The translations under genes and the position numbers were made by a program. From Saprospirales bacterium (GTDB lineage: Bacteria; Bacteroidota; Bacteroidia; Chitinophagales; Saprospiraceae), in NCBI GenBank assembly GCA_007695035.1, contig REEO01000037.1, positions 1 to 64,000 on the forward strand: a stretch of 64,000 nt of DNA. Direction: 5' to 3'. Positions within the stretch are counted from its first letter, which is position 1; every line of letters begins with the position of its first letter. Below, one piece after another: positions 41,960 to 45,858 of this stretch. Under the pieces are notes generated by a model. The model saw nothing but the letters and a program-made list of their open reading frames with translations, was not told where the DNA came from and did no database searches.

Positions 41960-44361
<2,402 letters not shown>

Positions 44362-44639
44362 ACCCACTGTACGGGGGAAAGTGTATTGACTTACCGGCCC
44401 CTTGAAGGGGTATCTTCGTACTTTTTTGTCAGCTTTTTTCCTCTTGGCTTTATGTCGAATGAGAAAATCGGTGACTCATCTTCGTATAGGTTAATTTTTA
44501 TTTGTAAATTACTGATTAAGTGTATTCTACAAATACAGATAAAAAAATTATTAAAACACATTAAAAAAAAGTATAATATGTTTGCCTGAATTATCCCTCA
44601 CTGACTACCTTTGCCAAACATATTAAATAAAACTGTAAT
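44362..44639. other. eno-ftsB intergenic region
   Basis: 278 bp. Small stem CCCC-TTGAA-GGGG (44398-44410), with a T-run 15 nt later that could end eno transcription weakly; a stem TGTATT/AATACA (44521-44537); a very A/T-rich stretch; and the ftsB promoter with its repeats from 44574 on. Confidence 0.5.
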
Positions 44640-44646
44640 ATGTTTA
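44574..44646 (+). repeat. Three-copy repeat TAATATGTTTG around the ftsB-like promoter and start codon
   Basis: TAATATGTTTG at 44574-44584, its exact reverse complement CAAACATATTA at 44615-44625, and TAATATGTTTA at 44636-44646 (10 of 11). Copies 2 and 3 can form a perfect 10-bp RNA hairpin (44616-44625 / 44636-44645, loop 10 nt) that buries the ATG at 44640. Confidence 0.8.
44581..44613 (+). promoter_or_regulatory. ftsB-like gene promoter, -33 and -7 elements
   Basis: TTTG (44581-44584) and TACCTTTG (44606-44613) with 21 bp between them; the best full match to the Bacteroidota consensus in this window. Transcription would start near 44617-44620, about 20 nt before the ATG. Confidence 0.65.
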
Positions 44647-44945
44647 GGAAGAAGTGGGATAAAATATGGGGGAGCATTCCTTTGCCGCTCAGGAACAAAT
44701 ACATTTTGGTTGTATTGGTTTTCGGCATTTGGATGATCTTTTTTGACAAGCAGAGCGTGATTAAGCACTACAAGTTGCAAAAGCAATTGAGCAACATGCA
44801 CAATGAGATGGATTACTACCGGGAGGAGATAGATAGAATTGAGATGGAACGCGCTGAAATGGAGGAAGATATAGAGCGATATGTCAGGGAGCGGTATTTT
44901 ATGTCAAAAGAAAATGAAGATGTTTTTGTGATCAAAAGAAAATAA
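44640..44945 (+). CDS. FtsB/DivIC-family septum formation initiator
   Basis: 101 residues. One membrane helix at about 20-38 (YILVVLVFGIWMIFFD), a short basic cytoplasmic N-terminus, then a periplasmic coiled coil (IKHYKLQKQLSNMHNEMDYYREEIDRIEMERAEMEEDIERYVRERYFM) and the family's E-R-Y-x-M-x-x-x-x-E-D-V-F ending. FtsB-type proteins join FtsL and FtsQ in the divisome. The start codon lies inside a potential 5' hairpin, suggesting tight control. sucD follows 43 nt later. Confidence 0.9.
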   Translation: MFRKKWDKIWGSIPLPLRNKYILVVLVFGIWMIFFDKQSVIKHYKLQKQLSNMHNEMDYYREEIDRIEMERAEMEEDIERYVRERYFMSKENEDVFVIKRK

Positions 44946-44988: not shown

Positions 44989-45858
44989 ATGTCAGTATTA
45001 GTTAATAAGAATTCAAGAGTAATTGTCCAGGGATTTACTGGAAAAGAAGGCTCCTTTCATGCCGAACAGATGATAGAATACGGAACTCCTGTAGTAGGTG
45101 GTGTTACGCCGGGAAAAGGAGGAAAAGAGCATCTTGGAAAGCCGGTTTTCAATACAGTTTCTGAGGCAGTTGAGAAAGAGGGGGCCGATACCTCTGTGAT
45201 TTTTGTACCGCCTCCTTTTGCGGCCGATGCCATTATGGAAGCTGCTGAGGCGGGCATTAAAGTAATTGTGTGTATCACAGAAGGTATTCCCGTGCAGGAC
45301 ATGCTCAAGGCCTCCTCGTATATTGCCAATAAGGATTGCAGGCTGGTGGGCCCAAATTGTCCGGGTGTGATCACTCCGGGTGAGGCCAAGGTCGGAATCA
45401 TGCCGGGCTTTATTCACAAGCGTGGAAATGTAGGGATTGTTTCCAGGTCTGGTACATTGACCTATGAGGCGGTGGACCAGGTGACCAAAGCAGGTTTGGG
45501 TCAATCGACTTGTATTGGAATTGGTGGAGACCCTGTCGTTGGAACGACCACGAGGGATGCCATTGAGTTGCTGATGAACGACGACGAGACTGCGGGAATC
45601 ATTATGATTGGTGAGATTGGTGGTAACATGGAAGCCAATGCTGCTCACTGGGTCAGAGAAAACGGTACCAAACCCGTAGTTGGTTTTATCGCCGGACAAA
45701 CTGCACCCAAAGGGAGGACCATGGGTCATGCCGGAGCGATTATTGGAGGGAAAGACGATACAGCCGAGGCCAAAATGGGTATCATGCGCGAATGCGGTAT
45801 ACATGTGGTGGAATCACCCGCACATATTGGTAAAACGATGGCTGACTTACTCAAGTAA
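44989..45858 (+). CDS. sucD: Succinyl-CoA synthetase alpha subunit
   Basis: 289 residues. Interconverts succinyl-CoA and succinate with substrate-level phosphorylation. [29 protein letters not shown] is the CoA-binding start, [20 protein letters not shown] the middle signature, and [12 protein letters not shown] carries the phosphorylated His247. The beta subunit gene sucC is not adjacent. Likely cotranscribed with the ftsB-like gene. Confidence 0.97.

Follow-up and report, generated by a model that had tools for sequence, protein, structure and literature searches.

The window, i.e. the whole 64-kb stretch of DNA that was analysed, carries a gene for a septum formation initiator of the divIC/ftsB type, located between eno (43078-44361) and sucD (44989-45858), both of which were named by eye from the sequence; the same gene order is repeated in the loci L227 and L228. 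The region upstream of divIC holds a -7 box and three copies of an 11-mer, TAATATGTTTG, which the first-pass annotation had described as framing the promoter, with a -33 TTTG in copy 1, the predicted +1 in copy 2 and the ATG in copy 3. Together with the two dyads described below, the features are:

44556-44581, + strand: dyad A, ACACATTA-N10-TAATATGT (halves 44556-44563 and 44574-44581), exact match, predicted -62 to -37
44574-44584, + strand: copy 1 of the 11-mer, exact
44581-44584, + strand: putative -33 TTTG, inside copy 1
44606-44613, + strand: -7 box TACCTTTG, Bacteroidota consensus TAnnTTTG as given in PMC6847099
44615-44625, - strand: copy 2 of the 11-mer, exact
44616-44645, + strand: possible leader hairpin, 44616-44625 paired with 44636-44645 (shortened to 8 bp by a start at 44618)
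44618, + strand: predicted transcription start, first base of dyad B, placed from the -7 box numbering
44618-44643, + strand: dyad B, ACATATTA-N10-TAATATGT (halves 44618-44625 and 44636-44643), exact match, predicted +1 to +26
44636-44646, + strand: copy 3 of the 11-mer, 10 of 11 positions, with the ATG at 44640 inside
44640-44945, + strand: divIC/ftsB-like septum formation initiator, 101 aa (PF04977, 34.1 bits against a cut-off of 28.9)

The numbering of the -7 box reported for Flavobacterium, T-12 to G-5 (PMC6847099), was applied to 44606-44613 and therefore places the predicted +1 at 44618, which leaves a predicted divIC leader of 22 nt with the ATG at +23; leaders of Flavobacterium psychrophilum have a median length of 24 nt (PMC9723704). 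All three copies are real, and copies 2 and 3 contain the predicted start and the ATG as described. The TTTG in copy 1 is likewise present in the source, but it is kept in only two of six aligned genomes of the genus (the source and G006).

A fourth half-site, ACACATTA at 44556-44563, had been overlooked by the first-pass annotation. Given its presence, copy 1 is half of one dyad, and copies 2 and 3 form a second dyad of like design, so that the four half-sites make up two dyads of 26 bp each, following the pattern ACAYATTA-N10-TAATRTGT. The dyads lie 62 bp apart and flank the divIC promoter, an arrangement like that of paired operators, with two like sites on either side of one promoter, and the right half of dyad B holds the divIC start codon. 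The earlier suggestion of a regulator site is therefore very probably right in so far as the repeats would be regulator sites on the promoter of a division gene, but copies 1 and 2 do not make up a single site, since the conserved symmetry joins 44556-44563 to copy 1 and copy 2 to copy 3, in both cases with a 10-bp spacer. A reading of the dyads as recombination sites was rejected, as their spacers differ from each other.

In the whole source genome (3.35 Mb), the 11-mer has three exact occurrences, two of them at divIC, versus one occurrence of the reversed control. Its four matches with at most one mismatch in the window compare with a mean of 1.68 after shuffling, and at least four were reached in 7 of 100 shuffles. 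This count alone is unremarkable; what exceeds chance at divIC is the clustering and the fixed geometry of the copies. Apart from dyads A and B, every match to the dyad pattern in the window has at least three mismatches.

The upstream regions of divIC were aligned for six genomes of the genus (the source, G002, G003, G005, G006 and G007). The DivIC proteins of four of these show 49-67 % identity to that of the source and that of G002 is identical, so that the six genomes represent about five lineages. The regions align without gaps over 140 columns. Dyad A is present in all six genomes, with one mismatch in one of them, and so is dyad B, whose right half is invariant and whose left half shows 0-2 changes, while the -7 box reads TA-N-CTTTG throughout and the distance between the dyads is always 62 bp. 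The interval from dyad A to the -7 box is mostly variable, unlike the half-sites and the box itself. No DivIC match was found in the other two of the eight genus genomes (G001 and G004), which are only 67 % and 74 % complete.

Outside the genus, 30 Saprospiraceae genomes with and without exact dyads were chosen by hand, and DivIC was detected in 28 of them (all except G023 and G025). A dyad with at most three mismatches lies near the start of five of these 28 genes, i.e. in G011 and G088 (one mismatch each, the two with at most one) and in G056, G058 and G093 (three each), and was not found near the start of the other 23. Conservation of the repeats upstream of the gene in relatives, on which the first-pass annotation had made its idea depend, is thus seen in all six aligned genomes of the genus but in a minority beyond it. 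In G011 and G088, and more weakly in G056 and G058, the dyad is placed like dyad B, and the divIC ATG again lies inside the right half in G011, G088 and G056. A -7-like box is located immediately 5' of the dyad in G011 and G088 (TACATTTG, TATATTTA), overlaps its left end in G058 and replaces its left half in G056. Dyad A was not seen at any of the 28 divIC genes outside the genus.

Four places in the source genome match the dyad exactly, two of them at divIC. When up to three mismatches are allowed, 70 matches are found versus 50 for the control; therefore, only near-exact sites carry weight, and single sites with two or three mismatches may be chance matches. Across the eight genus genomes, matches with at most one mismatch occur at 35 places versus none for the reversed control. 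At the level of the family, 89 of 248 genomes contain exact dyads, with up to 16 in one genome (G115), and 159 contain none; the reversed control was found in 6 of the 248. A class-wide set of 296 Bacteroidia genomes, all at least 90 % complete, has the exact dyad in three of five Saprospiraceae and in none of the 291 others (control: 7/291). The exact dyads are patchy by genus, several genomes of 7-11 Mb having none (e.g. G010, G020 and G024) and some of 3-5 Mb having up to 16, and in the genera without the dyad the putative regulator, or its specificity, may have been lost or changed.

The spacing is also constrained. With any spacer from N0 to N30 allowed in 25 selected genomes, there were 134 forward matches versus 5 for the control, and among the matches listed the N10 spacer was present in 66 of 75 (five of the 66 being identical copies in G154), the other nine being scattered over other lengths. 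A fixed N10 favours a protein dimer on DNA, which needs a fixed spacer, over a hairpin, the loop of which does not. The five identical copies in G154, ACATATTATGTATAATTTTAATATGT, are a repeated element bearing the dyad, found on contigs C14, C73, C84 and C100, and four of them lie within about 180 bases of contig ends.

For the genomic context of the dyad, we examined 125 distinct exact sites from 41 genomes of 19 genera. Exact dyads sit between genes: only 6 of the 114 sites with enough flanking sequence fall inside ORFs of at least 100 aa, versus 86 % of random positions. The -7 boxes were recounted over 114 exact sites, excluding the divIC sites of the genus (an earlier count took 84 sites). 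At offsets of +5 to +50 from the dyad start, there were 68 consensus boxes (1.5 per offset), and at 136 outer offsets 41 (0.3 per offset); 59 of the 114 sites have a box in the former range, i.e. the dyad lies over or upstream of it. The offsets peak at +10 (9 boxes), +21 (6, partly generated by the motif itself), +25 (7) and +38 (6). A peak at +50 in the earlier count consisted of the genus's divIC sites themselves and hence gives no independent support. None of the 114 other exact sites has a consensus box 12 bases before the dyad, as at dyad B, so that divIC alone shows this placement among exact sites.

The promoter of a giant secreted protein (L030:3085-3199, source contig C6; also L093 and L083) mirrors the divIC layout: a dyad lies upstream, and another, more diverged one follows the -7 box directly. 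In the source and in G002 this second dyad has three mismatches and the two are 89 bp apart; no start codon is located there.

Genes starting at most 400 bp downstream of exact sites were grouped by BLAST, and representatives were named by Pfam. The widest class is formed by T9SS/HYR secreted proteins (seven genera, a group that shared repeats may inflate), followed by a glucosaminidase in four genera and by nrdB, ftsK, ruvA and a DegP-type protease in three genera each. By chance, a mean of 0.02 families would recur in three or more genera, rising to 0.12 (maximum 3) when the assumption is made harsher. An alanine-dehydrogenase-like group from at least three genera mixes two enzyme types and was not counted as a target. 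In two genera ftsK and ruvA share their site with a divergent gene, and the third genus has only ftsK or ruvA. An SLT transglycosylase follows the dyad in two genera (four genomes). Single cases with exact sites are mraZ, a Xer-like tyrosine recombinase, a gyrase-B/ParE-type subunit, a Mur ligase, undecaprenyl diphosphate synthase, glmS, an NlpC/P60 protein and a DAP epimerase, the last at a site in common with a DegP-type gene; an Amidase_3 protein of the source's genus has a site with one mismatch. With T9SS surface proteins as its broadest group of targets, the regulon need not concern division.

At glmS, the start of which was set by the N-terminus MCGIVAYIG with the catalytic Cys2, the ATG lies within the right half-site of the dyad and no -7 consensus is found 12 bases upstream of the dyad. 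Therefore, a dyad reaching the start codon is not unique to divIC. An exact site precedes a large histidine kinase in two genera (G070 and G088), and an NtrC-type response regulator has an exact site upstream in G056 and diverged ones (two or three mismatches) in the source and G006, suggesting that signalling genes may belong to the regulon. Another gene, encoding a protein of 327-340 aa (L033:3126-4112, source contig C93; no Pfam match) with orthologues in L082, L092, L094 and L098, lies between a leucine/glutamate-dehydrogenase-like gene and a murF-like gene (named by eye), and in five genomes of the genus the end of its dyad abuts a -7 box, TATATTTG. A distantly similar protein in G215 (L141) has a like dehydrogenase neighbour and a dyad too.

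Considering the two dyads at divIC and their conservation in the genus, together with the constrained spacer, the restriction to the family, the association with promoters and the recurring downstream genes, we read the repeats as two operators of one dimeric DNA-binding protein, a putative repressor specific to part of the Saprospiraceae, and put the probability of this reading at roughly 70 %. Such a protein would bind the dyads as a dimer, repress, and serve a regulon tied to growth or the cell cycle. On dyad B, which extends over the predicted start to the start codon, a dimer would block RNA polymerase. Dyad A, which ends shortly before the core promoter, may add cooperative or looped binding, the 62 bp between the dyads corresponding to about six helical turns. 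Since the distance to possible second sites at other promoters (at most three mismatches, some perhaps due to chance) ranges over 49-116 bp, looping would be no general rule. Many dyads at other genes cover the -33 region or adjoin or overlap the -7 box, and a dimeric repressor appears to be the most likely mode of the putative regulator. Its regulon would comprise division, chromosome/dNTP, cell-wall and T9SS-surface genes.

It is tempting to go further and to regard ACAYATTA-N10-TAATRTGT as the operator of a Saprospiraceae-specific master regulator uniting division (divIC, mraZ/dcw and ftsK), dNTP supply (nrdB), chromosome (ruvA, the xer recombinase and the type II topoisomerase subunit), wall and T9SS surface genes; at divIC its operator would be double, beginning ahead of the promoter and extending as far as the start codon. 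We consider this wider proposal possible, if somewhat short of probable.

An activator or a two-way protein would recruit RNA polymerase from dyad A and feed back through dyad B. Dyad A does lie directly upstream of the -33 region, and many dyads elsewhere begin 27-50 bases before the -7 box, so that all or part of the dyad precedes the core promoter; as the position of the dyad varies relative to the -7 box, activation at some promoters is possible. This reading is nevertheless unlikely, because 27 boxes are found at +6 to +26, an overlap or contact with the dyad that suits blocking, the +50 peak of the first count was the genus's divIC itself, and the like-placed sites at divIC outside the genus match dyad B and not dyad A. 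If the dyads had no dedicated regulator and were simply an AT-rich motif that accompanies promoters, or a family of repeats, this would account for the AT-rich spacers of the dyads and for the five identical copies in G154, four of them near contig ends. It is nevertheless extremely improbable, given that the reversed pattern of equal composition is nearly absent, the spacing is fixed at N10, the half-sites are kept while the flanks differ, and the dyad is missing from the 291 other Bacteroidia genomes although the -7 promoter type is phylum-wide according to PMC6847099.

The remaining alternative places the function in the RNA. According to the first-pass annotation, copies 2 and 3 would form a perfect 10-bp stem at the very 5' end of the transcript that hides the AUG, the repeats thus serving in both DNA and RNA. 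The stem does have 10 bp if transcription starts at or before 44616, but from the predicted +1 at 44618 it has 8 bp and a folding energy of -3.4 kcal/mol (-0.6 to -3.4 at the matching start in the relatives), and a fold of 87 nt gave a z of -1.71, with 13 of 200 shuffles folding equally well. Regulation of divIC translation by this hairpin would fit the AUG in its 3' arm, the AUG in the right arm at divIC of G011 and G088 too, the invariant codon 2 (UUU) where residues 3-6 vary, and the pairing of 95 % of the cells of dyad B in the six genomes, partly via C-to-U and A-to-G wobble (one-sided changes at two pairs, three unpaired cells). The C-to-T half-site variant, however, also occurs at the operator C11:78753, so tolerance at the DNA level can explain these wobble changes. 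Moreover, no pair is altered on both sides in either dyad among the six sequences, a number small enough to make this a weak argument, and dyad A, upstream of the promoter, is conserved to an equal degree; 85 % of its cells pair, the loss being mostly one constant A/C mismatch. Elsewhere the N10 dyad overlies a -7 box or precedes it and is transcribed in part or not at all. Translational control through a hairpin masking the AUG is therefore very unlikely. The proposed dual use found no support, as 59 of 114 dyads lie over or upstream of a -7 box and none in the position of dyad B, N10 is fixed, compensatory changes are lacking and the stem is weak; the idea that the element serves primarily as an RNA thermosensor or as a hairpin over the start codon was rejected on account of the weak stem, the lack of compensatory changes and the placement of the dyads elsewhere. 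The hairpin is probably a by-product of dyad B. Since structure near the start codon is described as tuning translation in Bacteroidota (PMC6847099), a modest secondary effect on the translation of divIC is possible.

Several candidates for the protein that would bind the two operators were considered. HrcA and its CIRCE operator were tried for the equal half-site distance of 18 bp and rejected: the HrcA protein was found in 0 of 25 genomes searched (7 of 14 control genomes were positive), and a scan of the window for the CIRCE half-sites TTAGCACTC/GAGTGCTAA that allowed three mismatches gave no match. A MerR gene (C21:10113), which has a site with two mismatches, has no match in the dyad-bearing genomes G115, G129, G215, G154 and G095, and at the 10 of 21 orthologous loci scanned there was no exact or one-mismatch site and one with two mismatches (L241). 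Nor does the dyad take the fixed place in the -35/-10 spacer of MerR-type sites, its offsets being +6 to +50, and -12 at divIC. The NtrC-type response regulators (L035:12196-13467, source contig C26, and L192:1603-2877 in G056) are proteins of 424-425 aa with a receiver and a sigma-54 AAA+ domain that stop at the position expected for a Fis-type helix-turn-helix, with no Pfam match for one; as no DNA-binding domain was detected in the source and G056, they were rejected as binders and are read as targets.

No master regulator of cell division or of the cell cycle is known to us in Bacteroidota, and nothing relevant on the dyad motif or on such a regulon in Saprospiraceae was found among the open-licence PMC papers listed; those listed for the half-site string are unrelated by title. 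Operators and regulons of this kind are known as such; the dyad operator itself was not found in print within these listings. An operator common to genes of division, replication, the wall and the surface would be of interest in Bacteroidota, and the 26-bp operator and the recurring downstream genes provide a bait for the protein and a testable target list in an environmental bacterial family. The divIC site thus points to a control network not previously described rather than to a special RNA hairpin.

In LacI/GalR-style repression, two operators flank the promoter, and the divIC locus resembles this in that its core promoter lies between two like putative operators, which are separated by about six helical turns, whereas the possible second sites elsewhere (at most three mismatches, some perhaps due to chance) are 49-116 bp away. 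In CtrA-type cell-cycle regulons, one operator serves genes of division, chromosome and envelope throughout a lineage, as the dyad may do, and the differences are in motif and lineage. NrdR boxes have another form and spacing than the Saprospiraceae dyad; the likeness is an operator upstream of nrdB, seen for the dyad in three genera, but the target list of the dyad is much wider. CIRCE/HrcA (TTAGCACTC-N9-GAGTGCTAA) differs in the sequence of its half-sites and in its regulator, HrcA not having been found in any of the 25 genomes searched, and is alike in being a long-armed dyad with half-sites 18 bp apart from centre to centre. In Campylobacter jejuni, CIRCE overlaps the transcription start, and repression is thought to act by steric hindrance (PMC7464140).
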